Source: Rahnella sp. AA
GTDB lineage: Bacteria; Pseudomonadota; Gammaproteobacteria; Enterobacterales; Enterobacteriaceae
Direction of reading: 5' to 3'
Length of the DNA: 64,000 nucleotides
NCBI RefSeq assembly: GCF_002834385.1
Contig: NZ_PITQ01000006.1
Location: 124,001 to 188,000 of the forward strand
Part shown: positions 48,139-64,000 of the stretch, one piece after another
Layout: every line of letters begins with the position of its first letter
Numbering within the stretch: position 1 is the stretch's first letter
The notes under the pieces: model-generated
Databases searched by the model: none
What the model saw: only the letters and a program-made list of their open reading frames with translations
Told to the model about the DNA's origin: nothing
Made by a program: the position numbers and the translations under genes

Positions 48139-50559
48139 TTACCACGTTTTGCCAATATTAAACTGGAACTGTTCTGCGCTATCACCTTCATATTTCACCA
48201 GCGGCTGAGCGTAAGAGAATACCAGCGGACCTAACGGCGATTGCCATTGCAGTGCAATACCGCTGGAAACACGGATATGCATCGGATCACCATAATCCGG
48301 AATACCTGCCGCTTCGGTCGCCGACGTATTTTGCCATTTGGTATCCCACACCGTACCGGAGTCCACAAAGAACGATGTGCGCACGGAACTGGCGTATTTT
48401 TCGCTGATAAACGGCGTTGGCACATACAGTTCAGCACTGGCGATCGCCATCGCATTCCCCCCCACGGCATCGGAAGATTTATCCACCGGGCAACTGGAAT
48501 AGGACGTGTCGCTGGTCGTGCATTTGTAATAAGCCGCTTTCGGGCCGATGGTGTTAGACGAGAATCCTCGCACTGAGCTGGAGCCACCCGCATAGAAGTT
48601 GTCGTAAAACGGTACATCGTTACCGCCAATTCCTGCTGCATAACCGGCTTTGGCGCGGCCCATCAGAACCCAATCCGATTTATCACTCAGCGGAATGTAA
48701 TGGTTGGCGTCAAAGGTAATCTTGTAATAACTATCATCCGAGCCCGGCGTGGTCACTTTTGCGCTTAAGCTGGCGCGGGTGCCCGATGACGGGAAGAAAC
48801 CCCGGTTGAGATCGTTATACGCCCAGCCTACACTGGCGAAAAAGTCGTTGGTGCGCAGTTCGGCGGTACTGTTGCCGGATGTCACCACGCCCGGCTGTAC
48901 GCCACTGGCGTTCAGATAACGCCACACCGCCACCTGGGGTTCCATATCGCTCAGCGTGCTGTGAACATAGTCCAGCCCCAGGTTCAGCGTATTATTTTCA
49001 CTGACCGGCAGGCCAAGATTAACGCCCGTGCCGTAGCTTTGCAGGTTGTACGCAGCCAGATCATCATCTTCAGCGTCGTAATGGTTGTAGAACACTTTGC
49101 CGCCAAGGCTGATACCGTCGACGGTGTAATACGGATTAGTGGCCGAGACTTCAACATATGTCTGGTAGGTATTTCGGGTTCCGCTGAAACTGACGGTATT
49201 ACCGCTGCCCAGCCAGTTATCCTGCGTCACGCCAAGCTGATAGCTGATACCGCTGTCGGTGCCATACCCGATACCGACGTTGAAAGTGCCGGTGTTGCGT
49301 TCTTTGACTTTGTATATCACATCAACCTGATCGTTTGATCCCGGAACAGGCTGTGTATCGACATCCACCGTCTCAAAATAGCCGGTCCTGTTCAGGCGGT
49401 CTTTGCCCTTTTGCACCAGATCATTGCCCAGCCACGCGCCTTCCATCTGCCGCATTTCGCGGCGCAGCACTTCATCTTTCGACGTGTCATTGCCTTCAAA
49501 ACGAATCTGACGAACGGAATACCGGTTGCCGGTGTCGACACTGATCCGCAGTTTGACGGTTTTAGCAGCGTCGTTAATATCACTCTGTGTGGTGACGTGC
49601 GGATAAGCATATCCGTAGCGTCCCAACATATTTTTAATATCGCCTTCGATTTTGGTGACTTTCGCACCGCTATATAATTCGCCAGATGGGATCACCGCCA
49701 GCGCTTCGATTTCTGCCGAATGCCCGGCCATACTGCCGCTGACCTCGACTCCGGAAAATTTATATTGTTCGCCTTCCGTAATATTGACGGTAATATAAAT
49801 CCCTTTCTTATCCGGCGTTAAACTCACCTGTGTTGAGTCAATAGTAAAACGCGCATAACCCCGGTCGAGATAAAAGCTGCGAAGCGTTTCCAGGTCACCG
49901 GACAGTTTTTGTTTTTGATATTTTTGATCCCCCAGAATATTCCACCAGGGCACCTGATCGCGCAGCTGAAAATGAGCAACCAGGTCATCGTTGGTGAAAG
50001 CTTTATTCCCCACAATATTGATTTGCTGAATTTTAGCCGAAACCCCTTCCGTAAAGACAAATTTCACATCCACACGGTTACGCGGCAACGGCGTCACCAC
50101 CGCTTTCACGCTGGCGCTGTATTTACCGACGCTGTAATAGAAATCTTCCAGGCCGTGCTCAATTGAGGAAATCGTGGTGCGATCCAGCGCATCGCCGACG
50201 CGGACCCCGGAGGCATCCAGGTTCTGTTTCAGCATGTCATCTTTGATAGCCTTGTTGCCAGAGAAGGTAATGCTGGCAATGGTTGGCCGTTCTTTCACCT
50301 GCACAATCAGTGTATTATCCTCCTCCAACACCTTCACATCTTCAAAATTCCCGGTCGCAAACAGCGAACGAATTGTCTGGCTGATATCGTCATCCGATAT
50401 CGTATCCCCCACACGCACCGGGATGCTCAGCAAAGCCGCACCGACGGTTACCCGCTGCAACCCTTCGACGTGAATGTCCTTTACGACAAAGCCGCCGGCG
50501 GCATAAACCGGGATACTGCTGAACAGCAGCGACGCTAAGAGTATTTTTTTCATTGTCAT
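48139..50559 (-). CDS. BamA paralogue (outer-membrane protein insertase)
   Basis: An 806-residue Omp85 protein very close to E. coli BamA (810): signal peptide (about 1-22), five POTRA domains (about 24-420, for example [34 protein letters not shown]) and a 16-strand barrel with the lid-lock motif in [15 protein letters not shown] and the typical end FNIGKTW. The housekeeping bamA normally lies between rseP and skp/lpxD; here the gene stands alone, flanked by msrB and a regulator, so it is most likely a second copy. Two starts are possible, ATG 50559 and ATG 50553. Extracellular loops differ from E. coli, including [18 protein letters not shown] in loop 6. Confidence 0.93.
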
Positions 50560-51192
50560 TTAACGAAAGTCTTCCGAACAGTGAATGTTGGAAATCATCC
50601 TTTCCAGCACTGCGCTCTGTCATTAAGGCTGGTGAGTGATCTGTGCCCGCTGTTTTTCCTGCTGATAAAATCCACCGCGAACGGAAAGATTTTGCTCACA
50701 GAAAAAACAACCTCGCTAACAGACTGTGGGATATACCGGAGGTTCATCGGCGAAGTTTTGATTTTCATAAAACACGGGATTCGATTACGCATTACTTACG
50801 TTATTTTCACGAGGCGTACAGTTGTGGCTTTCAGTAAGGAACACGGCGGCTTCGCGGCGGAGAAGGAGAGGTGCCCTCATTTGGGTTGACGGTGAAACGT
50901 CATCCTTTGAAATAATAGTAAACAGAGATTCACGCCACCTGTTTATTATTAAATCCGGCTAATGATTCCCGCTTAAAATAATAGTGTAAATTATCACGAA
51001 AAATAACAGCAACGTCTCTAGGATTTTTGCTTTCGTTGTTATTTACGAGAGAAGTTAACATCCTTTCACAAAAATTAACATTATCAGCAAGGCTGAATTA
51101 ACCCGGCTGTGACGCGTTTCAAAATATAAAAACGCTCTCTCCTGTATATTTATCGGGTAAATATCTTACCGTTGGTATTGCAGGCAGGCTTA
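50560..51192. other. Long intergenic region between bamA-like and PocR-kinase genes
   Basis: About 630 bases between divergent genes. A 102-codon open frame (50581-50889) has no recognisable composition or ribosome site and I do not support it. The right part is AT-rich. It contains an inverted repeat ATATTTA/TAAATAT (51146-51164) and a TGTGA half-site at 51109-51113 that could belong to a weak CRP site before the kinase gene. Confidence 0.5.
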
Positions 51193-52422
51193 ATGAATAA
51201 CAAATATAAACTGCATGAATTTCTTGATGTAAAAAGACTTCAAACTCTCCAGGACAATTTCAGTAAATCCATGATGATCGCCCTGGTGGTGGTGGATCAG
51301 GACGGCGTGCCGGTGACGCAGGCCAGCGGGTTCTCTGATTTTTGCGCCCGCTCACGCCTCAACGAGGCGCTTGCGACACACTGCTATGAAAGCGATAACG
51401 CCGGGGGCCGCGCGGCCATGCAGGCGGGGAAACCGGTAGTCTATCGCTGCTACTGCGGATTCGTGGAATTCGCTGTGCCGATCATGATCAATGACCATTA
51501 TCTGGGCGCGTTTATCTCCGGTCAGGTGAAAGTCGAGGAAGAGAAAGAAAATACCATTCCCTACATTCTCGATAATCATGAAATATGGAAAGAAAATACG
51601 TGGCTGATCGACTTACATCAGGATGCCAAACGGATGCCTTACGACCGTTTTGAATCTACGGCATCGACATTACTGCACGTCTCTTCTTATCTGGTCGAAC
51701 AGGCGCACACCAATAATATTCAGCGTGAACTGCACCGCAAAGATCTCGAATTGACCGACGAGCTGCGTAAACGCGTTGAGATTGAGCGTTCACTGCATGA
51801 GGCCGAATTTAAAGCGCTGTCGTATCAGATTAACCCGCACTTCTTATTTAATGTATTAAATACTATTGGCCGTCTGGCGTATCTCGAAGATGCCCAGAGA
51901 ACCGAAACGATGGTGCATGATTTTTCCGATATGATGCGCTATTTATTACGCAAAAATAATCACGGGCTGATTACGCTGAGCCATGAAATTAATTATGTCA
52001 CCAGCTATATGTCCATTCAAAAAGTCAGAATGCACGATCGTTTTGATTATCACTGCGATATCCCGGAAAAGTATTCTGACGTGGTTTGCCCGTTCCTGAT
52101 TTTACAGCCGCTGGTCGAAAATTTCTTCAACTACGTTGTCGAACCGCGCGATACCAGCAGCCAGCTGCGGATCAGCGCCCGCGACGACGGCCACGATGTC
52201 ATTCTGGAAGTCAGTGACAACGGAGATGGCATTTCACAGGCCGATATCGCCAATATTTTATCCGGCGATGAAAACCGTCAGAAAGGCGGTATCGGTATCA
52301 ATAATATTAAAAACCGGCTTCAGCTGTTATTCGGGGAAAACTATGGGCTGGAAATTTACAGCGCCCATAAACCCAGAATGGGCACCACGATTACACTGAA
52401 ATTCCCCATGCTGGAAGCCTGA
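51193..52422 (+). CDS. PocR-domain sensor histidine kinase (LytS-type)
   Basis: A 409-residue cytosolic kinase. The N-terminal PocR ligand-binding domain (about 8-170) has conserved cysteines C51, C64, C86 and C88 ([13 protein letters not shown]). A short coiled coil (about 175-207) leads to a His_kinase domain with H216 in [15 protein letters not shown], and a HATPase domain with [11 protein letters not shown] and VSDNGDGIS. PocR domains sense small hydrocarbon diols such as 1,2-propanediol, fitting the microcompartment substrate. ATG 51193 is the most natural start; its ribosome site is weak. The response regulator follows 18 bases later. Confidence 0.9.
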
Positions 52423-52440: not shown

Positions 52441-53493
52441 ATGTATAATATTGTTATTGTCGAAGACGAATTAATTGAATCTGAATCCCTGCGGCGTATT
52501 GTTTCGCAATATGTCGATAACGCGGTTGTTCATGAAGCGTCAACCGGAAAAAAGGCCATCCAGCTGATTGACGATCTCGAGAAAATTGACATGATGTTTG
52601 TCGATATTAATATTCCGCTGCCCAACGGGAATCAGGTCATCGAATATCTGCGCACAAAAAATAACGACACAAAAGTGATTGTTACCACTGCCAATGATGA
52701 TTTCGAAATTGTGCGCAGCATGCTGAATTTAAAAGTGGACGACTATTTGTTAAAACCGGTGAAAAAAAGCACGCTGACTGACGCCATCAAAAAAACGCTG
52801 GAAGTGAATGATGTCGATATCGCCGCGTCACGGGCGCTGAAACAGAAAATAGTATCCATGATTGAATCCTGTGATTACCCCCGGTGGCACAGCTTTTTAT
52901 TCAACACCCTCGATGACGCCTGTGTGGGCACTACGTCCGGGGTCAGCCAGCGTAAATTGCTGACCGATGTTCTCGAAATACTGCATCAGCATCTCGCCTC
53001 GCAGGGCGATAAAAGCATTCCCACCGGCAAAAAAGTGGCGGCACTTATCCAGGAAATACACCAGTGCGGGATACCTTCCCATGCGTATTATCGTGTAATG
53101 TCCTCCCTGTTCGACGCCAGCGAAGAAACGTTCGATTATTCACTCAAACATGCCAGCGGCACGATGGATTTCATCGATCGCGCGAAATTCCATATCGAAA
53201 AAAACATCCTGAAAAACCTGACGCTCGACGAAATTGCTGCCCGCTCTTTTGTCAGCTCCTGCTATCTCAGCCGTGCGTTTAAGAAAATTACCGGTGCCGG
53301 TTTTTCCAATTACATTGCCAGCCGGAAAATTGGCGTTGCCAAATCGTTATTGCAGTTCAGCGATCTCAAAATCAACACCATCGCGCTCGAACTGTCTTAT
53401 CAGGATGCGAATTATTTCTGCCGGATTTTCAAAAAAGAGACCGGAATGGCGCCGTCCGATTTTCGTAAAATTGTCGCGCCGCAACCCGTTTAA
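52441..53493 (+). CDS. AraC-type response regulator for the microcompartment locus
   Basis: A 350-residue regulator: receiver domain (about 1-120) with acidic ED (8-9), phospho-accepting D55 in MMFVDINIPL and Lys in LLKPVKKS; a central linker; and a C-terminal AraC double helix-turn-helix (about 245-345, LTLDEIAARSFVSSCYLSRAFKKITGAGFSNYI and INTIALELSYQDANYFCRIFKKETG). Together with the PocR kinase it resembles a two-protein version of the PocR activator of pdu/cob genes. Likely targets are the metK-shell unit downstream and the pduA promoter at 63 kb. Confidence 0.9.
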   Translation: MYNIVIVEDELIESESLRRIVSQYVDNAVVHEASTGKKAIQLIDDLEKIDMMFVDINIPLPNGNQVIEYLRTKNNDTKVIVTTANDDFEIVRSMLNLKVDDYLLKPVKKSTLTDAIKKTLEVNDVDIAASRALKQKIVSMIESCDYPRWHSFLFNTLDDACVGTTSGVSQRKLLTDVLEILHQHLASQGDKSIPTGKKVAALIQEIHQCGIPSHAYYRVMSSLFDASEETFDYSLKHASGTMDFIDRAKFHIEKNILKNLTLDEIAARSFVSSCYLSRAFKKITGAGFSNYIASRKIGVAKSLLQFSDLKINTIALELSYQDANYFCRIFKKETGMAPSDFRKIVAPQPV

Positions 53494-53500
53494 CCGGCCT

Positions 53501-53538
53501 GCGACGGGCACGCCTGATTTTGTGCGCGTGCCCGTCGC
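53501..53538 (+). terminator. Long GC-rich hairpin between response regulator and metK
   Basis: GCGACGGGCACGC (53501-53513) pairs perfectly with GCGTGCCCGTCGC (53526-53538). No T run follows, so it may be a Rho-independent-like pause, a processing site or a stabilising element rather than a full terminator. Confidence 0.55.
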
Positions 53539-53635
53539 GTGGGCAAAAAAGTCCACCTTACCAGCAAGATAGTTCACGCCAGTTTCGCCGCTTGCCGCCT
53601 ACCATGGGGTACCCTCTGAGAAACGTGGCGCGACT

Positions 53636-54781
53636 TTGGACGACTTTCTTTTCACCTCTGAATCGGTTGCCGCCGGGCATCCGGACAAAATGGCCGACCA
53701 GATTGCCGATGCAATCCTGGACGCCTTCCTCTTGCAAGATCCGCAGGCCCGCGTGGCCTGCGAATGCATGCTCAAAACCGGTATTGTGATTGTTGCAGGC
53801 GAAATCAGCTCAACGGCCAATGTCGATATCGAATCCGTTATCCGCCACACCATCAGCGAAATTGGATACAACCACTCCCGTCTGGGTTTTGATGCCAAAA
53901 CCTGCGGCGTGCTGAATATCCTGGGGAAACAGTCTGCGGATATTGCACAGGGGATGACCGGTTCCGCGCCGGAATTCCTGGGCGCAGGCGATCAGGGGAT
54001 GACCTTCGGTTATGCCTGCGACGAAACACCGGAACTTATGCCCGCCACGCTGATGTTGGCGCACCGGCTGATGATGCGTCAGGCGATTTTACGTCAGTCT
54101 GGCAGACTGTCGTTTCTGCGTCCGGATGCCAAAAGCCAGGTCACGCTGCGCTACAACCACCGTCAGGTCATGGCCGCCGACACCATCGTGGTTTCCACGC
54201 AACACGATCCGGAGATTTCCCTGGCGGAACTGCGCGAGGCGGTGATTGAGGAGATCGTGAAACCCGTGATCCCCGCCCGCGTATTAACGCCGAAAACCCG
54301 TTTACTGATCAACCCCGCCGGGCAATTTGTCACCGGCGGCCCGGTGGGCGACTGCGGCCTGACCGGCAGAAAAATTATCGTCGATACCTACGGCGGCGTA
54401 GCCCGCCACGGCGGCGGCGCATTCTCCGGCAAAGACCCGTCGAAAGTCGATCGCTCGGCCGCTTATGCCGCACGGTATGTGGCGAAAAATATCGTCGCCG
54501 CCGGGTTGGCAAAACGTTGCGAAGTCCAGCTGGCCTGGGCGATCGGCCTTCCGCGTCCGGTAGCCATCCGCATACATACTTTTGGCAGCAGCCCGCTGAC
54601 CGCTGAACAGCTGACTCAGCGGGTTGAGCGCCATTTCGATCTGAGCGTTTCCGGCATCATTTCGATGCTGGATTTGCTTGTTCCCCGCTACCGTCAGACC
54701 GCCTGCTATGGCCATTTTGGCCGGGACATTTTCCCCTGGGAAAAAACCGACAAGGCGCAGGCACTGCGCGACGACACCTGA
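53636..54781 (+). CDS. metK: S-adenosylmethionine synthetase, microcompartment-linked copy
   Basis: A 381-residue enzyme making SAM from methionine and ATP (E. coli MetK 384). All main motifs are seen: [12 protein letters not shown] (8-19), [23 protein letters not shown] and [27 protein letters not shown]. The only in-frame start near the family N-terminus is TTG 53636, with a poor ribosome site. It lies between the regulator and a shell-protein gene, so it is unlikely to be the housekeeping copy; it could supply SAM to the glycyl-radical activase. No encapsulation-like N-terminal helix is evident. Sequence is more divergent than E. coli housekeeping MetK. Confidence 0.9.
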
Positions 54782-54838
54782 ATACGCAAAGGCGGCGGTC
54801 ACCGCACGCCACAATGAATCCATCAACAGGAGAAATTT

Positions 54839-55363
54839 ATGTCCGGGCTAAGTTTGGGATTAATAGAAACCGTCGGGCTGGCGGCGGCGGTGGAAGCTGC
54901 GGATGCCGCCATGAAATCCGCACATGTCACACTGGTCGGTTATGAGCTGACCAAAGGTGGCGGAATGGTCACGATAAAACTGGAAGGCGAAATCGGTGCG
55001 ATCAACGCCGCCGTCGCTGCCGGCGTCATTGCCGCGCGCAAAGTCGGTGTCGTTTACGCCCACAAAGTCATCGCCCGTACCGCGCAACACATTGAAAGTC
55101 TGATTTATTCCGCCGAAACCAAAGGCATCACGCCTGCCGAACCGGAACCTGAAGCGCTGCCACCCTCACCAACGATACAGCCGTCAATCATTGCAGTCGT
55201 GAATGTCGAAGAAATACCGCAAACGTCCTGCATGGAATTAGCATCTGTGGCTGAACCCGTCGGGGAACCGGTCATTTCAGAAACGGCAGAAGATAAAAAA
55301 CCGCAACCGGCTGCGGTGAATACTAAAAAAAACACCTCTGGCCGGGGGAATAAAAAAGCGTAA
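54839..55363 (+). CDS. BMC-H shell protein with long C-terminal tail
   Basis: A 174-residue microcompartment shell protein. Residues 1-90 are a standard hexamer-forming BMC domain (LGLIETVGLAAAVEAADAAMKSAHVTLVGYELTKGGGMVTIKLEGEIGAINAAV). The remaining 84 residues are low-complexity, rich in Pro, Glu and Val, and end in a basic tail, KKNTSGRGNKKA. The tail has one cysteine. Comparable extended shell proteins (PduK, EutK) use tails for other domains; no known domain is recognised here. It follows metK by 57 bases with AACAGGAGAAATTT, and ends at a strong terminator, so metK and this gene form a small unit. Confidence 0.9.
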   Translation: MSGLSLGLIETVGLAAAVEAADAAMKSAHVTLVGYELTKGGGMVTIKLEGEIGAINAAVAAGVIAARKVGVVYAHKVIARTAQHIESLIYSAETKGITPAEPEPEALPPSPTIQPSIIAVVNVEEIPQTSCMELASVAEPVGEPVISETAEDKKPQPAAVNTKKNTSGRGNKKA

Positions 55364-55385
55364 AACGCGGAATAACAAAACAGCA

Positions 55386-55443
55386 AAACGGCAGTGCGGG
55401 TCGGGGCAATAATCATCAGCCCCTCACCTTCACTGCCGTTTTT
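55386..55443. terminator. Bidirectional terminator
   Basis: AAACGGCAGTG (55386-55396) pairs with CACTGCCGTTT (55431-55441), followed by TT; an inner GGGGC/GCCCC stem (55403-55407, 55419-55423) extends it. It separates the shell unit from the convergent facilitator gene. Confidence 0.85.
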
Positions 55444-55482
55444 ATTGCTTCACATTCGGGAGCTTTAAGACGGGAATACTTT

Positions 55483-56274
55483 TTACGCGGTGACTTTGCC
55501 CGGTAAATTTTTGCTGATGCAGAAACGGTAAACCGCCGCGCCCAGACATGCACCGATCACCGGCGCAATAACGGGCACCAGGAAGTACGGAATATCGCGA
55601 CCCCCGGTCATCGACATTTCACCCCAGCCGGCGAAGAAGGTAAATAATTTCGGGCCAAAATCGCGTGCCGGATTCATGGCAAATCCGGTCAGCGGCCCGG
55701 TTGATGCGCCAATCACCGCCACCAGGATCCCGATTAACAACGGCCCGAGCGGGCCGCGCGGCACACCATTACCATCATCGGTCAGCGCCATGATCAGCCC
55801 CATCAGAATCGAGGTAATGACAATTTCCACGAAAGCCGCCTGCCAGACGCTGATCGCCGCCGCCGGATACGTGCTGAAAATGCTGGCCAGTTGCAGGCTT
55901 TCCACGCTGCCGCGCACCATCTGATGGGCACTTTCGAATTCCGTGAACAGATTGTGATAAAGCAGATAGGTCAGCAACGCACCGCCAAACGCCCCGGCAA
56001 CCTGAGCGATAATGTACGGCACCACTTTCCGGCCAGGAAAGCTGGCGAATAACCATAGCGCGATGGTAATCGCCGGGTTCAGGTGGGCACCGGAAATCCC
56101 GGCGGTGAGATACACCGCCAGCGAAATTCCCAGCCCCCACACAATACAGATTTCCCATAACCCGAAACTGGCCCCCGCGACTTTCACTGCGGCAAGACAG
56201 CTGATGCCAAAAAACAGAAATAATCCGGTACCGAGAAACTCCGCAAGGCACTGCGTTTTGACTGAATCATTCAT
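55483..56274 (-). CDS. pduF: MIP-family diol/glycerol facilitator (PduF/GlpF-like)
   Basis: A 263-residue aquaglyceroporin with six helices and the two NPA loops, SGAHLNPAITI and GFAMNPARDFGPK; the Asp after the second NPA-Arg marks glycerol-type channels. It would admit 1,2-propanediol or glycerol. It is the last gene of the minus-strand microcompartment operon, 52 bases after the activase stop. AGGATTATTAT precedes the ATG. Confidence 0.9.
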   Translation of the reverse strand: MNDSVKTQCLAEFLGTGLFLFFGISCLAAVKVAGASFGLWEICIVWGLGISLAVYLTAGISGAHLNPAITIALWLFASFPGRKVVPYIIAQVAGAFGGALLTYLLYHNLFTEFESAHQMVRGSVESLQLASIFSTYPAAAISVWQAAFVEIVITSILMGLIMALTDDGNGVPRGPLGPLLIGILVAVIGASTGPLTGFAMNPARDFGPKLFTFFAGWGEMSMTGGRDIPYFLVPVIAPVIGACLGAAVYRFCISKNLPGKVTA

Positions 56275-56325: not shown

Positions 56326-57243
56326 TCACCCGCCTATATGGCAATTAAACCCTAATGACTCTACTTCTTTTTTTAATATTTCCATTTTTGATTCGCCGGT
56401 ACGTTCCGGGTCACCCATCGGATAAATGCGCCCCAGCAAGCCATATTTATTTTCACCATATTCGTGATACGGCAATAAGTGAATCGTATCGACATTGGAC
56501 ATCAGGCGGGCAAATCCGGCTATCTGGTGGATCTCATCGACGTTATCATTGACGCCGGGGATCACCGGAATACGGACAATCACTTTGGTCAGGAATGAAA
56601 TACGCAGCAGGTTTTCCAGAATCTGCGTATTGCCTATTCCGGTGTTCGCCAGATGCACGGCCGGATTGATGGCTTTGATGTCGGTCAGCGCCAGATCGAC
56701 GTAAGGGAAAACGTCGGCAATCACTTCCGGCGTGGTGAAACCGGTGGTTTCCATCGCCGTATGCCAGCCCTTTTCTTTGCAGGCTTTCAGCAGTTCGCGA
56801 GCAAACGCCGGTTGCGCCAGCGGTTCGCCGCCGGAAAGCGTGATCCCGCCCCCGGAGCGGCGGTAAAGATTTTCTTCTTTCTGCAATTCACGCATCACTT
56901 CGGCAATCGTCATGCGTTTGCCTTTCATTTCCAGCGCCTGCGTCGGGCAGACCTGTGTACATTCGCCGCACTGAATACAACGTTCGCGATCGACAAAGAA
57001 AGCATTATTTACCGACAGCGCCTGTCGTTTGCAGACTTCAATACATTTACCGCAGCGGATACAGTCATTCTTTTTAAATATTAATTCCGGCTGAGGACGT
57101 TGTGATTCCGGATTACTACACCATTTACACGAAAGCGGGCATCCTTTAAAAAAAGGAATTGTACGAATACCCGGACCGTCATGCAGAGAATAGCGCTGAA
57201 TATTAAACAGCACGCCTTCCATTTCGTAATCGACTTTATTCAT
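56326..57243 (-). CDS. Glycyl-radical enzyme activase (radical SAM)
   Basis: A 305-residue activating enzyme that uses SAM and a [4Fe-4S] cluster to create the glycyl radical on the adjacent dehydratase. Radical SAM motif C35-x3-C39-x2-C42 (CPLSCKWC), two ferredoxin-like clusters (C61, C64, C67, C71 and C89, C92, C95, C99), and GGITLSGGEPLAQ. ATG 57243 is preferred; an in-frame GTG at 57255 is possible. A strong hairpin between the dehydratase and this gene likely keeps its level low, as expected for a catalytic activator. Confidence 0.93.
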   Translation of the reverse strand: MNKVDYEMEGVLFNIQRYSLHDGPGIRTIPFFKGCPLSCKWCSNPESQRPQPELIFKKNDCIRCGKCIEVCKRQALSVNNAFFVDRERCIQCGECTQVCPTQALEMKGKRMTIAEVMRELQKEENLYRRSGGGITLSGGEPLAQPAFARELLKACKEKGWHTAMETTGFTTPEVIADVFPYVDLALTDIKAINPAVHLANTGIGNTQILENLLRISFLTKVIVRIPVIPGVNDNVDEIHQIAGFARLMSNVDTIHLLPYHEYGENKYGLLGRIYPMGDPERTGESKMEILKKEVESLGFNCHIGG

Positions 57244-57276
57244 GACTTCGCTCACATCAGCGCCACAGGTTATTTT

Positions 57277-57324: not shown

Positions 57325-59868
57325 TCAGAACTGCTGTTCAGTACGGCTGATAATGTCATCCTGCACTTCTTTCGCCAGCACCACGAACTGGGCGCTGTAT
57401 CCGGCCACACGCACAACCAGATCCTGATGTTGCTGAGGATTGTTCTGCGCTTCAACCAGGGTTTTGCGGTCGATGACGTTAAACTGAACGTGCATCCCTT
57501 TCTTATCGAAGTAGTTTCTGACCAGCCCGCTGAAGTGACGCAAACCTTGTTCCCCGGCAAGCGAAGACGGCAGGAATTTCTGGTTATACAGCGTCCCGTT
57601 TGAGGCAATGAAGTGGTCGAGTTTTGCCACAGAGTTTGCCGCAGCGGTTGGGCCCTTCGTGTCTTTCCCCTGACGCGGAGAAACACCGTCGGCCAGCGGT
57701 TCTTTCGCCATGCGTCCGTCCGGCAATGCGGCAACGTCTTTACCAAACAACACGTTAGCCGACACCGGATAGATACCGGCCTGGAACTGGCCGCCGCGCG
57801 GGTTGGTATATTTCTCGACTTCCTGGCAGTAAATCAACGCACACTGACGCGCCACCATATCCACTTCGTCGATGTCATTACCAAAGCACGGCGTATTTTC
57901 CAGAATATGGCGGATTTCCTCAAAACGGGAACCGTTACCCGCCGGTGCCGCCGTATTGCTGGCAAGCTGGCGATAGACTTCCGCTTTGATCGCCACCGCA
58001 TCCAGAGCACCGTGCGTTTCGATGATGCGTTTCACCATCTCGTGAATTTCCTGCTCGCCTAGCGAAGATTTCCCGGCGGCAGCGTGCGGCGTGCCACCGG
58101 TGGCGTGGCCGAAGTTAGCGTCCAGCGCGCTTTTCAGTTCATTCAGCGTCAGTTTGCGATCTTCGAATACCTGTTTCTGAATCGCGTAGACGGAATCCCC
58201 GGTGTCGGCAATCCCGAACGCCTGCGGGCCGGTGAAGTTGTAAATAGCGCCGCCTTCCTGAAGCGATTTGCCGCGCCCGATACAGTCATCCACCAGCGCA
58301 GACAAGAATGGCAGCGGGCAGCGCTCGCCGTGCGCAATATCCACGCTGTTGCAGGCTTCCACCAGCTGATGAACAAAGTGCGCCATCTGTTTCTTAAACG
58401 CGCTAAAGAAATCGTCAATGCCGGTGTACTGCGTCATTTCACCGGTCACCGGCCCCAGCTGTTTGTTACCTGCGCGGCCATTATTGAGGGTGATTTCGAG
58501 CACTTTTGCCACGTTGAAGAAAGCGGCGTCGTGCCAGCCTTCCGTGCGGTGCGGTGCCTGCGGTTCCACGCAGCCGATGATGCAGTAATCGCGGGCGTCA
58601 TGCAGTGATACGCCACGGTTTTGCAACGCCGGAATAATCACTTCGTCGTTATACATTGCCGGAACGCCCAGCCCCATGCGCACCAGTTCACAAGCGCGGA
58701 ACAGGAATTCATCCGGCGTGCCCTGCCAGACGCGAATGGAGAACGACGGCTGCGGCAGACGCACGTGCGCCGTGGCTTCCATACACATGTAGGTCAGCGG
58801 GTTAGTTGCGTCGCGGCCATCTTCCGTTTGTCCGCCCACGCACAGGTTCTGGAAAACCGCATAACCGGCAAATGCCTGTGCTGAGATTTCATCGCGCGTT
58901 TTGTTGATGTCGTTAAGCTTAATCCAGCAGCAATCCACCAGTTCCTGGGCAAATTCTTTAGAAATGGATTTGTCCGCCGCCAGATGCGGATACATGTACT
59001 GGTCGAAACGCCCCGGAGAAATGGAATGACCGCTGGACTCAATCTGCAACATACTTTGCAGGAACCAGAAGGTCTGGCAAGCTTCCCAGAACGTGCTCGC
59101 GCCGTTTTCCGGAACACGGGTACAGTTTTGCGCGATTTGTTCCAGCTCACGTTTACGCGCCGGATTGCTTTCCAGCTGCGCCAGACGTGTGGCCTCCTGC
59201 GCATAACGATGAGCAAAATTAATCGCCGCCTGATAGCTGATGATCACGGCGTTATAGAATTGCTCTTTTTTGATATAGCCCGGTTCGCGGCGATCCAGAT
59301 TTTCCAGCGCACGGGTAACGTCGTTAATGATGCCACGGAAACCGATTTTCAGGATTTTGCCGTAATCCACGCTGACATGGCCAACGCCGCCGAAGAAGTA
59401 GTTACCGACGGTGAAAACGCCGCTGGCCATACTTTCCTTGGTACCGTCGGACATATAAGACGCCGCCAGCGAACTGGTGGTTTTACCCGGCCAGTATTTA
59501 AACGCTTCGTGCAATTCGTCTGCGGTCTTTTGAGGAATAATAAACGGGTCAGCCACCCGGTGTTCCATGGTATTAAATTCTTTTTCCACCCAGTCATAAG
59601 AGAATTCAGGGCAGATTTCAGTCGAGCGGGGATTAATAGTCACTGCACCGACGATCAGCTCATCAGGACGAATAGTCACCGGCAGCTCATTGAATATTTT
59701 CTCGACGACTTTCGCCCTGCGCATAATAGCCGGCAGATGTTCATTTTCTTTATAGGCATTCGTTGCCAGGACGGCGCGCTCAGATTCCACATACGGTCTG
59801 GCATGCAGGATCATATTCTTGAGTCTGACAACACGTTCGGTCGGATTAGAAAAACCTTTCTCTAACAT
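57325..59868 (-). CDS. B12-independent glycyl-radical diol dehydratase (propanediol/glycerol)
   Basis: An 847-residue glycyl-radical enzyme dehydrating 1,2-propanediol to propionaldehyde (or glycerol to 3-hydroxypropionaldehyde). Active-site C433 and E435 lie in IIGCVEPQ, H164 in GGVGHVSVDY, H281/S282 in SSGHSISPGR, D447 in TEGWHDAAF; the radical glycine is G823 in RVAGYSAQF. As I recall, these numbers match Clostridium butyricum glycerol dehydratase, except that the radical glycine is shifted by about 60 because of an insertion at about 588-648. That insertion contains an amphipathic helix between Ala/Gly/Pro-rich linkers and looks like an encapsulation peptide. It is not choline lyase: CutC lacks the TEGWHD segment. 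GGGAGTTATTCT precedes the ATG. Confidence 0.92.
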   Translation of the reverse strand: MLEKGFSNPTERVVRLKNMILHARPYVESERAVLATNAYKENEHLPAIMRRAKVVEKIFNELPVTIRPDELIVGAVTINPRSTEICPEFSYDWVEKEFNTMEHRVADPFIIPQKTADELHEAFKYWPGKTTSSLAASYMSDGTKESMASGVFTVGNYFFGGVGHVSVDYGKILKIGFRGIINDVTRALENLDRREPGYIKKEQFYNAVIISYQAAINFAHRYAQEATRLAQLESNPARKRELEQIAQNCTRVPENGASTFWEACQTFWFLQSMLQIESSGHSISPGRFDQYMYPHLAADKSISKEFAQELVDCCWIKLNDINKTRDEISAQAFAGYAVFQNLCVGGQTEDGRDATNPLTYMCMEATAHVRLPQPSFSIRVWQGTPDEFLFRACELVRMGLGVPAMYNDEVIIPALQNRGVSLHDARDYCIIGCVEPQAPHRTEGWHDAAFFNVAKVLEITLNNGRAGNKQLGPVTGEMTQYTGIDDFFSAFKKQMAHFVHQLVEACNSVDIAHGERCPLPFLSALVDDCIGRGKSLQEGGAIYNFTGPQAFGIADTGDSVYAIQKQVFEDRKLTLNELKSALDANFGHATGGTPHAAAGKSSLGEQEIHEMVKRIIETHGALDAVAIKAEVYRQLASNTAAPAGNGSRFEEIRHILENTPCFGNDIDEVDMVARQCALIYCQEVEKYTNPRGGQFQAGIYPVSANVLFGKDVAALPDGRMAKEPLADGVSPRQGKDTKGPTAAANSVAKLDHFIASNGTLYNQKFLPSSLAGEQGLRHFSGLVRNYFDKKGMHVQFNVIDRKTLVEAQNNPQQHQDLVVRVAGYSAQFVVLAKEVQDDIISRTEQQF

Positions 59869-59932: not shown

Positions 59933-60235
59933 TCAGAACGCGGTATTATTATCGTCTTCTATTATTCGCATGGCCTCATTCACCGCAGCGACCTCACCAA
60001 ATATGGCCAGCGTCGTAATATGTTGCGGGCAGCTGCCAAATATTTCCGAGACCACCACATTCGCACTTTTACTGGCAGCATCCGCGTAGAAATAAAGATC
60101 CGGCACCGGCAACATAATCATGCCAATCGCATCGATACGGATGAGATCCAGTCTTGAACGGAATTCGCCAGGCATCCTGCGTTTTATCATGGCCACGATG
60201 TCTGGCGTCGGTGCGTTTATGATGCGTTTTTTCAT
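59933..60235 (-). CDS. Circularly permuted BMC shell protein (GrpU-like)
   Basis: A 100-residue shell protein. The N-terminal stretch KKRIINAPTPDIVAMIKRR matches the C-terminal end of ordinary BMC-H proteins (for example [16 protein letters not shown] in the PduA here), followed by the usual core (DAIGMIMLPVPDLYFYADAASKSANVVVSEIFGSCPQHITTLAIFGEVAAVNEAM). The domain is therefore permuted. The cysteine in FGSCPQH would face the pore, like the iron-sulfur-binding GrpU proteins of GRM loci. ATG 60235 has AAGGGGCG in front; GTG 60238 is also possible. It lies between pduP and the dehydratase gene. Confidence 0.82.
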   Translation of the reverse strand: MKKRIINAPTPDIVAMIKRRMPGEFRSRLDLIRIDAIGMIMLPVPDLYFYADAASKSANVVVSEIFGSCPQHITTLAIFGEVAAVNEAMRIIEDDNNTAF

Positions 60236-60244
60236 CACCGCCCC

Positions 60245-61753
60245 TTATCTGACGTTAAGGGCCTCGACCATCACGCAGCGGCGGATCCGGGCGAATGACT
60301 TCGCTGACGTCAACCCCTCTCCGGTTGGCCCGGCAATCGTAAAGGTCGCATGTCCTTCACCGCCGACGCCTAATCCGGCATAGGAAGGCCCGTTTTTCAC
60401 GAAAATAGTGGTCTGGATCTGACGGGCCATTTTGGTGAGTTTATCGACATTGGTAGAGTGCATGATGGCCGTGTGACGGTTGCCATGTTCCACTTTCACC
60501 GCCAGTTCAATGGCTTCATCAACATTTTCCACACGCACCACCGGCAGCACCGGCATCATCAGTTCATGGATCACAAAAGGATGCGTTCTTTCGGTTTCCA
60601 CCAGGATCACTTTGGTGTCTTCCGGCGCGTTCACGCCCAGTTGTTGCAGGATGTAGCGCGCATCTTTGCCAACAAACGCGGTGTCCGGCCCGGTGCCTTT
60701 TTCGTTCATCACCAGCGCCTGTAGTTGCCGGATGAGTTTTGGGTCACACAGCAGATACCCACCGCTTTTCTTCATACAGTGAATCAGATAGTCCGCCACC
60801 TGATTGACCACGATGACCTCTTTTTCAGCGACGCACGGCAGGTTATTGTCGAAACTGCATCCGCGGATAATATCGCGGGCGGCTTTTTCAATATCTGCGG
60901 TTTCATCGACCACGGCGGGCGGATTTCCTGCTCCCGCACCGATGGCTTTTTTGCCGGAAGACATCACCGTTTTCACAATTGACGGCCCGCCGGTTGCCAC
61001 CAGCATATTGATACGCGGGTCTTTGATTAATGCGCTGGTGTTATCGAGTGAAGGCTGCGTGACCGTGACCACCAGATTGGCCGGTGCGCCAAGGCTCGCC
61101 AGCTTCTGGTTAATCAGCGCCACCGTCATCAGCGAAACGTTGCGGGAACGCGGATGCGGGCTGAACACCACGGTGTTTCCCGCCGCCAGCATCCCGATGC
61201 TGTTGTTGATGATGGTTTCGGTCGGATTGGTGGTCGGCGTAATCGACCCAATCACGCCGTAGGCCGAAAACTCCGTCAGCGTCAGGCCGTTGTCGCCACT
61301 CAGCGCGCCGGTCGTCAGATCTTCCAGCCCCGGCGTTTTCTGCGCCGCGACGCGGTTTTTCGTCAGTTTATCGGCATAATTCCCCATGCCGGTTTCTTCC
61401 ACCGCCAGACGGGAAATCTCCTGCAAGGTGCTTTCCTGCAAAAATACGTCACGGATGCCCTGAATAAACGTGGCGCGATCCTGCATTGAACAATGGCGAT
61501 ACTGAACCTGCGCCAGCACGGCGGCAGAAATCGCTTCGTCCATCGAATCAAATGCACCGTTGCCCGCATCGCAGGTCGCCGCCTGTGGTGCGGGCACTGA
61601 TTGTTGTGCCAGCGCGCGGGCAACAATGGCATCCAGCGAATCACTGTTTTGAACCGCCTGCACAGGCGCGGCCTGCGGTGCCGCTTCCGGTGCAATTTTG
61701 GTGTACCGGCTCAGAACGTTCGATACCGCCTGAGCAATTTCAATATCATTCAT
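60245..61753 (-). CDS. pduP: CoA-acylating propionaldehyde dehydrogenase (PduP-like)
   Basis: A 502-residue NAD-dependent aldehyde dehydrogenase converting propionaldehyde to propionyl-CoA in the microcompartment lumen. The N-terminal 18 residues (MNDIEIAQAVSNVLSRYT) form an amphipathic encapsulation helix, joined by an Ala/Pro/Gln-rich linker (about 20-65) to the enzyme. Catalytic cysteine is C307 in SFDNNLPCVAEKEV; the cofactor segment GSITPTTNPTETIINN is clear. A PduP/CutF-type role is fixed by the operon. AAGGAACTGACAGC precedes the ATG. Confidence 0.93.
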   Translation of the reverse strand: MNDIEIAQAVSNVLSRYTKIAPEAAPQAAPVQAVQNSDSLDAIVARALAQQSVPAPQAATCDAGNGAFDSMDEAISAAVLAQVQYRHCSMQDRATFIQGIRDVFLQESTLQEISRLAVEETGMGNYADKLTKNRVAAQKTPGLEDLTTGALSGDNGLTLTEFSAYGVIGSITPTTNPTETIINNSIGMLAAGNTVVFSPHPRSRNVSLMTVALINQKLASLGAPANLVVTVTQPSLDNTSALIKDPRINMLVATGGPSIVKTVMSSGKKAIGAGAGNPPAVVDETADIEKAARDIIRGCSFDNNLPCVAEKEVIVVNQVADYLIHCMKKSGGYLLCDPKLIRQLQALVMNEKGTGPDTAFVGKDARYILQQLGVNAPEDTKVILVETERTHPFVIHELMMPVLPVVRVENVDEAIELAVKVEHGNRHTAIMHSTNVDKLTKMARQIQTTIFVKNGPSYAGLGVGGEGHATFTIAGPTGEGLTSAKSFARIRRCVMVEALNVR

Positions 61754-61795: not shown

Positions 61796-62581
61796 TCAGA
61801 TATAAGGTTTGGTGGTGGAGTTGATGGGCGCCGGGTCGAGCGTGGCGAGCAGTTTCAGCCCCACTTCGCGCGCCGCGATCACTGCCTGGCGGACGGCACC
61901 GGAATCACCGGCGAACGTGAAGATGACTTCGTTACTGAAGCTGGTTCCCTGAGACGGGCTGGCATAACCGACCGGTTCGATGACCGCAGATTTCGCTGCG
62001 ACGTCAGCAATCACCACGCCAATCGCCGCCGGAGAGGCGCAGGTCATGCCGAAAGATTTGCCGATCGGTGCGCCGAACGCCTTGTTAAGGGCGAAACTGG
62101 CGCGGGCGGTATATTGAAATTCGAGATGTCCCGCCGGTGAACCATAAACGTCGCCCATAGTGCGTTCGATTTCTGACAACGCCACTTCAATGGCGCGACG
62201 GACATCCGACACATCGGCAGCGCCGAAAATGATTAAACATCCGTGTCCGCCGCCACCTTCTGTATCACGCGCCAGTTCAATCGAGATCACTTCGCTGTTG
62301 GTCGCTTTCACGGCTTCGTCCGCTGCGAAAATATGCGGGCCTGCGCCGGTGCGCGCACCCAGAATACCGATAGAGCGATATTTCTTGTCGATATTCATGA
62401 CGTCATGTAATTGATGATCGACATTGGCAATGACCAGACCAATAGTATGGCCGAGGGCGGTGCCGACAAATTCTGTCAGACCACAACCGGCAATACTGGC
62501 GGCTGTTTTGCCTCTGCCATTTTCATCAGTCTGTTTATTCACTACTTCAGATATAATCTGCTCAACAAGATTATCTCTCAT
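61796..62581 (-). CDS. pduB: BMC-T trimeric shell protein PduB
   Basis: A 261-residue shell protein with two tandem BMC domains (about 55-155 and 160-255) forming pseudohexameric trimers. It carries the PduB-type N-terminal extension, MRDNLVEQIISEVVNKQ, an amphipathic helix that in Pdu compartments links shell and cargo. Sequence blocks GCGLTEFVGTALGHTIGLVIANVD and GARTGAGPHIFAADEAVKATN are typical. AGAGGATACTGACC precedes the ATG; it follows pduA by 21 bases. Confidence 0.95.
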   Translation of the reverse strand: MRDNLVEQIISEVVNKQTDENGRGKTAASIAGCGLTEFVGTALGHTIGLVIANVDHQLHDVMNIDKKYRSIGILGARTGAGPHIFAADEAVKATNSEVISIELARDTEGGGGHGCLIIFGAADVSDVRRAIEVALSEIERTMGDVYGSPAGHLEFQYTARASFALNKAFGAPIGKSFGMTCASPAAIGVVIADVAAKSAVIEPVGYASPSQGTSFSNEVIFTFAGDSGAVRQAVIAAREVGLKLLATLDPAPINSTTKPYI

Positions 62582-62602: not shown

Positions 62603-62884
62603 TTAACCGACGGCTTTTGGCAGAATTTTTTCCACTTCGATATGCGGGCGCGGAATAACGTGGACAGAAACCAGTTCACCCACTTTCAGGGCTGCCGCAG
62701 AACCGGCGTCAGTGGCTGCTTTTACTGCGCCGACGTCGCCGCGCACCATCACAGTGACCAGGCCGGAACCGATCTTTTCATAACCCACCAGCGTGACATT
62801 GGCGGATTTGACCATGGTATCTGCCGCTTCAATTGCAGAAACCAGCCCTTTAGTTTCAACCATACCTAGTGCTTCTTGTTGCAT
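62603..62884 (-). CDS. pduA: BMC-H shell protein PduA
   Basis: A 93-residue hexameric shell protein nearly identical in pattern to Salmonella PduA ([14 protein letters not shown]...[17 protein letters not shown]...[17 protein letters not shown]). KIGSG lines the pore used by propanediol. ATG 62884 with AGAGGTCGTT is the start; the 19-codon longer frame is rejected. It is the first shell gene of the minus-strand operon, behind a 327-base control region. Confidence 0.96.
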
Positions 62885-63211
62885 AACGACCTCTGATATT
62901 GAGTGGGAATATCGGTAAGCGCGGGAGTTAATAAAAGTCACCGCCGCGGGGTTTTCATTCTGCGCATAAACACTTCACGCACGATGATAGTAAGGATTTA
63001 GGGACAAAATGTTTTGCCCGCCAGCCGGACTATCTTGTTATTCCGGCAAACAGCCGGACAATAAAATCCATCTGCATTAAATAGCGCTGAATAAATAAAA
63101 AATGCTGAAACCGGCACGTACGAAACCCGCCCATGAATAAGGGGAATTGTTATTCAGATCTCAGTTTTATTTATTCTTTACTGCACAGAACTTAATAATC
63201 AAAATCCGGAA
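62885..63211 (-). promoter_or_regulatory. Control region before pduA with direct repeats
   Basis: These 327 bases hold no gene. CAGCCGGAC occurs at 63022-63030 and again at 63051-63059, 29 bases apart; the next bases are also alike (TATC and AATA). A CCGGC/GCCGG pair overlaps the second copy. Direct repeats spaced near three helical turns suit an AraC-type activator such as the response regulator at 52.4 kb. An inverted GAATAA/TTATTC pair lies near 63136-63156. Confidence 0.5.
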
Positions 63212-64000
63212 TTACCTTGCTGCGGAAATAGCCTGCGCATCACGGGCAATCATTTTTTCTTCATTGGTCGGGATCACGGCAATCTTCGGCGTATCAGTTT
63301 TTGAAATCAGCCCGAAGCAGCCACCGCAGGTTTCCTGATTTTTTTGTGCGTCCAGTTTCAGGCCAAAAACACTCAGGCGTGCAATGGTCAGTTCCCGTAC
63401 CAGCGCAGAATTCTCGCCAATACCGCCGGTGAAAATCAAAGCGTCCAGGCGTTTAAGCGAAGTGAGATGCCCGCCCAGATGACGCGCCAGCCGGTGAACC
63501 ATCACGTCGATCGCCAGGGTGGCGCGCGGATCACCGTTACTGCGGGCTTCCTGCAACGTCCGGCAATCGCTGGATATGCCGGACAATCCGAACAGACCGG
63601 ACTGGTTATTCACCATTTTATACAGTGCATCGATCGTCTGCCCGGTACAGGCCGCGATATGCGCCGCCGCACCAAAATCCAGATCGCCGCAGCGCGTCCC
63701 CATCACCAGCCCTTCCAGCGGCGTCATGCCCATCGACGTATCCACACTTTCTCCGTTCTGCACCGCACACACCGAAGAACCGTTACCCAAATGCGCAATC
63801 AGAATGCCGTGGTCGTCCGGGTCCAGACCCAGCGCTGACACCGCCTGCGCGGCAATATACCGGTGAGACGTGCCGTGAAAGCCGTAGCGCCGCACCTGAT
63901 AACGTTCCTGATATTCCAGCGGGATGGCGTAGGTATAGGCTGCTGGCGGCAGCGTCTGGTGGAACGCCGTGTCGAACACGGCGATTTGTGCCACCTCCGG
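63212..64000 (-). CDS. Acetate/propionate kinase, partial (PduW/AckA-like)
   Basis: The C-terminal 262 residues of an ASKHA-family kinase (full length about 400); the 5' end lies beyond the window. Recognisable blocks are [76 protein letters not shown] and [13 protein letters not shown]. It makes ATP from propionyl- or acetyl-phosphate and so completes the oxidative branch of diol fermentation. The stop lies about 330 bases before pduA on the same strand. No upstream partner is visible in the window. Confidence 0.92.

Follow-up and report, generated by a model that had tools for sequence, protein, structure and literature searches.

The locus

We analysed a stretch of 64,000 nucleotides from Rahnella sp. 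AA, and "the window" refers to all of it. Near its end lies a microcompartment locus with a glycyl-radical enzyme (a GRM locus), which has these features:

51172..52422, plus strand: PocR-domain sensor histidine kinase (PF10114, PF06580, PF02518)
52441..53493, plus strand: AraC-type response regulator with a receiver and an AraC-like DNA-binding domain (NCBIfam receiver and AraC matches, all below cut-off)
53541..53580, plus strand: tandem box, a predicted regulator site (14-mer core, relatives, matrix scan)
53636..54781, plus strand: second metK, S-adenosylmethionine (SAM) synthetase of the GRM clade, with a TTG start (TIGR01034, trees, active-site positions)
54839..55363, plus strand: extended BMC-H shell protein whose acidic, then basic tail is predicted to be disordered (PF00936, AlphaFold2)
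55382..55449, plus strand: terminator-like stem-loop with a T-run, between convergent units (fold -36.3 kcal/mol, z -8.2)
55483..56274, minus strand: MIP family channel (TIGR00861)
56326..57255, minus strand: glycyl-radical activase, radical SAM with a ferredoxin-like insert (PF04055, PF00037)
57325..59868, minus strand: glycyl-radical enzyme (GRE) of the 1,2-propanediol/glycerol dehydratase type (TIGR01774; PDB relatives)
59933..60238, minus strand: GrpU shell protein (match to GrpU, 4olp)
60245..61753, minus strand: CoA-acylating aldehyde dehydrogenase, AldDH (best PDB match 5jfl/5jfm)
61796..62581, minus strand: BMC-T shell protein (two PF00936 stretches)
62603..62941, minus strand: canonical BMC-H shell protein (PF00936)
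63001..63040, minus strand: tandem box, second copy, ahead of the main-operon BMC-H gene (matrix scan)
63212..64000, minus strand: acetate kinase (AckA), continuing beyond the end of the window (translation only)

The second metK and the extended BMC-H gene are 57 nt apart and form a two-gene unit (metK-bmcH) between the PocR kinase/AraC regulator pair and the terminator, with the main operon on the opposite strand. A sequence-only reading of this DNA had described this arrangement, and it is borne out by the gene, domain, and folding evidence. The unit stands at the downstream edge of the locus. The main operon converges on it from the minus strand and extends beyond the end of the window; the 13 genes that we read encode AlcDH, PduL, a flavoprotein, EutN, HbpS/DUF336 (we take DUF336 to be PF03928), AckA, BMC-H, BMC-T, AldDH, GrpU, the GRE, the activase, and the MIP channel (presumably PduF-like). 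The stem-loop was not listed by a simple terminator scan, which was limited to short loops.

A second strong hairpin (53494-53545; -35 kcal/mol, z -4.5; window sequence only) has no T-run and lies between the response-regulator gene and the metK box. Upstream of the locus, the window encodes a full-length second copy of BamA (806 aa; window 48139-50559, minus strand), which is 77% identical to the complete copy at C2:23063-25480. Its gene has an efflux operon that includes msrB on one side and the regulator genes of the microcompartment on the other.

Class of the microcompartment

The nearest solved relatives of the GRE in the PDB are 9rco, the glycerol dehydratase 1r8w, and the diol dehydratase 5i2a. 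Its matches at 94-95% (among the best 80 of 92 matches, in named genomes) are from Rahnella species. The GRE carries a helical insert of about 60 amino acids, predicted to be an encapsulation peptide, and in the accessible part of Ferlez 2019 (PMC6325248) an insert of this length and kind belongs to the definition of the GRM3 GRE. The locus pairs this GRE, which is of the 1,2-propanediol type (a substrate predicted from sequence), with a cognate radical-SAM activase. The best PDB match of the AldDH is 5jfl, the enzyme from R. palustris; 5JFL and 5JFM are given as the GRM3 AldDH of that species in the available text of PMC5311937.

As listed in the available part of Axen 2014 (PMC4207490), the accessory genes of GRM3 are a SAM synthetase, a two-component pair, acetate kinase, a flavoprotein, and DUF336, and all of them are found here (acetate kinase from the translation only). 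GrpU (4olp, E 4.9e-50) is present as well; it was reported for 53 of 55 GRM3b loci in the same part of Ferlez 2019, in which the word metK does not occur. A EutJ homologue and a peptidase are not among the 13 main-operon genes that we read, a statement that covers those genes only. Because the gene set fits the definitions of Axen 2014 and Ferlez 2019, the locus is GRM3, probably of the GRM3b subtype, and the predicted substrate of the compartment is 1,2-propanediol.

A second metK

The protein encoded at 53636-54781 is full-length and scores 583.5 bits against TIGR01034, for which the curated cut-off is 309.4. A search of the genome found exactly one other metK, at C11:632867-633997 on contig 11, which is flanked by a GalP-like transporter gene and a SpeA-like gene. 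(The neighbors are named from their translations, and the housekeeping metK of E. coli has the same surroundings.) Since the genome has two metK genes, we rejected the idea that the copy in the window is the housekeeping gene; the sequence-only reading, which had called it a second metK and would have given up the claim had there been no other, was right on this point.

The two MetK proteins are identical at 235 of 381 residues (62%). They are alike in family and at their active sites, with the same residue at 19 of 19 checked active-site and cation positions (which we take to be the relevant positions in MetK). The two genes differ in their neighborhoods and promoters, and the gating-loop sequence of the window's MetK is unlike that of the housekeeping enzyme. 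Every other aligned MetK from a GRM locus is unchanged at the 19 sites too, apart from three. The copy from Mixta tenebrionis (L084, 15462-16580) has an open frame, yet 8 of its 19 sites are changed, and it may be decaying or have been put to another use. The Rouxiella copy (L086) differs at 3 sites and one Symbiopectobacterium copy (L045) at 2. In two more loci (L088 and L101), metK is split between frames. These altered and split copies suggest that the enzyme may be dispensable in places. We also considered an encapsulation peptide on MetK and rejected it: across the aligned GRM MetKs, there is no conserved targeting extension at either the N or the C terminus.

A sigma-70 scan gave one site versus 1.2 expected. 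In the 300 nt upstream of the window's metK, the best pair of MetJ-like boxes has 9 of 16 matches, and overlapping windows ahead of the housekeeping copy reach 11 and 10 of 16 (the consensus used is what we take the MetJ box to be). A possible, if tentative, explanation for the second gene is escape from feedback: the GRM MetK would be a source of SAM that is free of MetJ repression or of product inhibition, because induction of the compartment coincides with high demand for methionine or SAM, and local delivery would play no part. Both the lack of a MetJ-like box pair and the divergent gating loop fit this explanation, but the comparison of MetJ boxes is a weak one that has no shuffled control, kinetics cannot be read from a sequence, and the explanation overlaps with the co-induced supply of SAM that we propose below.

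Recurrence of metK at GRE loci

A scan of named genomes for the GRE (the best 80 of 92 matches) gave 76 loci, and metK lies in the examined flank of 56 of them; the loci are related, so these counts are not independent. The sequence-only reading had staked its claim on recurrence near GRM loci, and metK does recur there. In 37 of the 56 loci, a shell gene follows metK on the same strand within 400 nt, and in 26 of these 37 the downstream shell gene best matches the tailed BMC-H (24 gammaproteobacteria and 2 Synergistaceae). Because metK recurs at GRE loci, we rejected chance adjacency.

Among the 20 loci with no metK in the flank, 8 are truncated by contig ends. Two Vibrio loci have metK and a tailed BMC-H just beyond the flank, and Raoultella sp. 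BIGb0138 has the kinase, the regulator, and metK together on another contig. Whole-genome searches found no second metK in Pasteurellaceae LFhippo2 or in two Veillonella genomes with a GRM locus. (The misses checked against whole genomes were L041, L047, L050, L065, L067, and L069 only.)

Of 14 genomes from the genus, 5 encode the GRE, and the GRM metK accompanies it in 4; in the fifth (G002), the likely counterpart of the GRE contig, L026, ends inside the activase. None of the 9 genus genomes that lack the GRE has the GRM metK, and two of them (G001 and G008) have a different extra metK. A strict search for the GRE across the order identified just 3 of 394 genomes (the present one and two with a GRE that is 56% identical), which is too few for an analysis of co-occurrence.

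Nine loci of a Lachnospiraceae type (L071-L074, L076, L085, L087, L091, and L098) have GRE, activase, and metK in a row, and no BMC match at E 0.1 in the DNA examined. From these loci it could be argued that metK is tied to the GRE rather than the shell. We dropped this argument because their GREs carry the encapsulation-type insert, so the shell is likely encoded elsewhere; the nine loci indicate only that metK adjoins the activase.

Other extra metK genes occur in two Rahnella genomes and in one other genome of the family (L135, 5821-6972; L136, 5318-6469; L137, 5866-7023). Their products group near the gammaproteobacterial housekeeping MetK in a FastTree phylogeny, and nothing near them matched any GRM query. 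In Clostridium sp. 1001271st1 H5 (L064 / G442), the copy in the GRM locus is the only metK found in the genome, which could be due to an assembly gap, a search miss, or the loss of the housekeeping gene.

Origin of the GRM MetKs

We built a FastTree phylogeny from 105 MetK rows (58 GRM, 40 labelled as housekeeping, and 7 DUP) and an IQ-TREE phylogeny of 45 rows with 24 of the 58 GRM MetKs, 21 of the 40 housekeeping-labelled MetKs, and none of the 7 DUP rows. (The rows omitted from the latter include L099, L153, and L156.) GRM MetKs fell into two clades, each with support of 100/99. One holds those of gammaproteobacteria and an uncultured Neisseriaceae and is sister to the gammaproteobacterial housekeeping MetK. 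The other holds those of Firmicutes, Synergistaceae, and one alphaproteobacterium. The MetK from the window belongs to the first clade, which is the outcome of the comparison with the housekeeping copy that the sequence-only reading had proposed. Monophyly of all GRM MetKs is rejected (p-AU 0.00036), and with it a single origin; the AU test presupposes groups named in advance, and the GRM label comes from gene context, though the FastTree phylogeny had been seen first.

A second tree, of 44 rows, includes L099 and leaves out GRM_L096 and GRM_L159. The L099 MetK, from Synergistota, groups with the housekeeping MetKs of its own phylum (100/99), and placing it in the Firmicutes GRM group gives p-AU 0.042. 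This MetK may represent a third recruitment, which is less firm because of its long branch and odd composition. In the FastTree phylogeny, a third metK from the genome of L056 (L153, which carried the housekeeping label irrespective of gene context) has a long branch next to the Firmicutes GRM group. Overall, the GRM MetKs in these trees are not one lineage, and metK joined such loci at least two times; instead of separate capture, an older copy may have been replaced in one lineage.

Comparison with choline loci

CutC GREs are activated by the same kind of SAM-using activase. The 295 genomes searched from the order include 5 with CutC, which have 6 such loci between them, a small control sample. 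None of the 6 loci has metK nearby (coverage was about 19 kb on each side for five loci, and 4.8 and 12.8 kb for the sixth), and none of the 5 genomes has a second metK, each having a single one. One of them (G148) also encodes a GRE that shares 56% identity with that of the window (residues 2-588), and it still has one metK. Shell genes were matched at only four of the 6 loci, which leaves four for the comparison with choline compartments. (L175, L176, and L177 belong to the two CutC loci with no shell-gene match nearby, and one of these CutC genes, G056:C1, has an in-frame stop.)

As these genomes manage with no extra metK, the use of SAM by the activase does not by itself explain the second metK. 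The sequence-only reading had proposed a dedicated supply of SAM on the grounds that the activase consumes it. The proposal gains from the recurrence of metK and from the predicted box in common with the main operon (see below), but its rationale is weakened by the five CutC genomes with a single metK.

A predicted regulatory box shared with the main operon

The tandem box consists of GCAA half-sites 21 bp apart and starts 95 nt upstream of metK. Two direct half-sites with this spacing, upstream of the controlled genes, are typical of AraC-type tandem operators. The gap between the regulator and metK contains a conserved tandem sequence of the type GCAAAAAAGTCC and GCAAGATAGTTTAC; about 36-47 nt before the start of metK, a CTAAGAT-like hexamer follows it in 26 of 27 rows (a pattern written afterwards). 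In relatives, metK and BMC-H are each preceded by both half-sites 21 bp apart. The core 14-mer, GGGCAAAAAAGTCC, has 2 exact copies in the 5.85-Mb genome, at 53541 of the window and upstream of AlcDH, which opens the main operon; if one mismatch is allowed, there are 14 sites, and a reversed control also has 14.

We trained a matrix on metK sites only, using 24 of 27 upstream regions (L046, L048, and L051 were not used), and tested it on 29 loci, leaving out L045, L050, L051, L088, and the window's own locus. In 26 of the 29 loci, which are related and are not independent tests, the best other site is on the coding strand, 60-200 nt ahead of AlcDH, PduL, or BMC-H, versus a mean of 0.45 loci and a maximum of 5 for 200 column-shuffled matrices. 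The three failures are L027, L029, and L069; in L027, the site closely precedes BMC-H and misses the distance limits, counted from an estimated start. At the window's locus, the next sites are upstream of BMC-H (score 13.1; 63001..63040), which is the second best in the 36 kb scanned, and upstream of AlcDH (score 8.5), where only the first half-site matches well. We predict that the tandem box is a regulator site common to the metK unit and the main operon, and the neighboring AraC-type regulator may act through it.

These results also bear on whether the extra metK is a passenger, i.e., a duplicate that is kept by its promoter and neighbors and has no special role in the compartment. The gene is absent or degenerate in Veillonella, Pasteurellaceae, and Mixta, and the sampled CutC genomes do without a second copy, as would be expected of a passenger. 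But separate MetK lineages were recruited to the same kind of locus, most copies conserve the active-site positions, and the promoter box is conserved, and we consider this explanation unlikely.

The extended shell protein

The BMC-H at 54839-55363 is a protein of 174 residues, with a single PF00936 domain at residues 5-80 (74.4 bits) and a tail of about 75-95 residues. In the AlphaFold2 model, the BMC core is confident and the tail is predicted to be unstructured (blocks of 54-65 pLDDT from residue 91). We examined tails in 27 of 39 BMC-H rows, having excluded those that were broken, untailed, or of another lineage (L045, L047, L050, L052, L054, L055, L058, L059, L065, L078, L088, and L093); a structure-based alignment has 29 rows. 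The tail is acidic and then basic over its last 20 residues in 25 of the 27 rows. An IPVVN[LVI]-like motif is present in 24 of 27, versus a mean of 0.16 and a maximum of 3 for shuffled tails (the regular expression was written after the sequences were seen), and an SCM-like motif follows it by 12-18 residues in 20 of 27. In the window's protein, these motifs are IAVVNV (residues 118-123) and SCM (130-132).

The sequence-only reading had suggested that MetK might be associated with the shell, and the tail could be its anchor: the tailed BMC-H would hold MetK at or in the shell, and SAM would be delivered locally to the encapsulated activase. Consistent with this, the genes for MetK and the tailed BMC-H directly adjoin each other at 24 gammaproteobacterial and 2 Synergistaceae loci, and the hydrophobic tail motif is enriched over shuffled tails. 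But MetK has no terminal extension for targeting. A similar tailed BMC-H, whose motif does not exactly match the pattern, is kept at a Pasteurellaceae locus in a genome with one metK, and in Budvicia, Neisseriaceae, and Cohaesibacter loci the tailed BMC-H adjoins BMC-T and not metK. The anchor is weakened by L050 and by loci of this kind, where the tailed BMC-H lies apart from metK; in Raoultella sp. BIGb0138, too, metK is on another contig. We therefore view a shell-held MetK as very improbable.

In Raoultella sp. BIGb0138, the tailed BMC-H is in the GRM locus (L041, 14670-15215), and the kinase, regulator, and metK are at L132 (4290-7911). This split implies that the metK/tailed BMC-H pair is separable, unless it reflects a misassembly.

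A different role for the tail is suggested by EutK, PduK, and CmcE, which, in the available portions of PMC12487888 and PMC12058022, share with the window's BMC-H a single BMC domain and a long C-terminal extension; the positively charged end of the tail is EutK-like. Unlike EutK and PduK, the window's BMC-H has neither the C-terminal nucleic-acid-binding-like domain of EutK (PF16365; only PF00936 matched) nor the tetracysteine motif of PduK (its tail has a single cysteine), and it has its own IPVVN ... SC motif. When eutK is deleted in Salmonella, most compartments are at the poles of the cell, and the authors, in the same portion of PMC12487888, draw attention to EutK's positively charged tail and to a similar role for PduK. 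By analogy, the tail most likely acts in positioning or tethering the compartment. Given the eutK-deletion phenotype and the tailed BMC-H proteins that occur away from an extra metK, we favor this role over docking of MetK.

A proposed role and comparison with known systems

We think it probable that metK-bmcH is an accessory unit of this GRM3/GRM3b locus that provides a co-induced, cytosolic supply of SAM beside an extended shell protein of the EutK/PduK kind. Starting from the gene identities, the recurrence, the shared box, the separate origins, and the intact active-site positions, all of which are read from the DNA, we infer the binding of the box by the regulator, the co-induction, the need for SAM, and the role of the tail. 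The PocR-domain kinase and AraC-type regulator would sense the diol and bind the tandem box. As the box lies upstream of both metK-bmcH and main-operon genes, the extra SAM synthetase would be made together with the compartment. Cytosolic MetK would then supply SAM to the radical-SAM activase, which would install the glycyl radical, and this supply would be outside the control of the housekeeping metK. The co-transcribed extended BMC-H would be a minor shell subunit, and its disordered, basic-ended tail would position or tether the compartment.

A more speculative idea, and one that we think is probably wrong, is that SAM is a bottleneck in GRM compartments with a diol dehydratase but not in choline compartments (e.g., from repeated re-activation or from uncoupled SAM cleavage by the activase), so that metK was captured into such loci at least three separate times, and that in Enterobacterales the conserved tail motif of the neighboring shell protein holds enzymes that make or use SAM at the shell's cytosolic face.

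One type of GRE compartment has captured metK repeatedly, in separate events, and the few loci that we sampled from a second type in this order have none. This makes it testable how encapsulated radical enzymes obtain SAM, which is large and charged, and why only some would need their own supply. The shared box offers a concrete regulon, and the tail motif is a defined element for work on shell proteins.

A dedicated supply of SAM is not a new idea: Axen 2014 (PMC4207490), in the part available, lists SAM synthetase as an accessory gene of GRM3 with the same rationale. What is new is the lineage and the supporting evidence. In the open-licence literature on microcompartments with metK, GRM3, extended BMC-H, PocR, or Rahnella, parts of which were accessible, we found no account of the separate recruitment of metK to GRM loci, of the box upstream of metK recurring upstream of main-operon genes, or of the tail motif, and each is new as far as we searched. 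The closest precedent is the GRM3 locus of C. beijerinckii, whose metK, according to the available text of PMC6384099, is strongly up on L-rhamnose and adjoins a response regulator and a LytS-like kinase. Like the loci of Axen 2014 and C. beijerinckii, the Rahnella locus combines a SAM synthetase and a two-component pair with a 1,2-propanediol GRE. The Rahnella unit differs from these GRM3 precedents in its position on the opposite strand from the main operon, in having a conserved promoter box of its own, and in its MetK, which is of a gammaproteobacterial lineage separate from the Firmicutes GRM MetKs.
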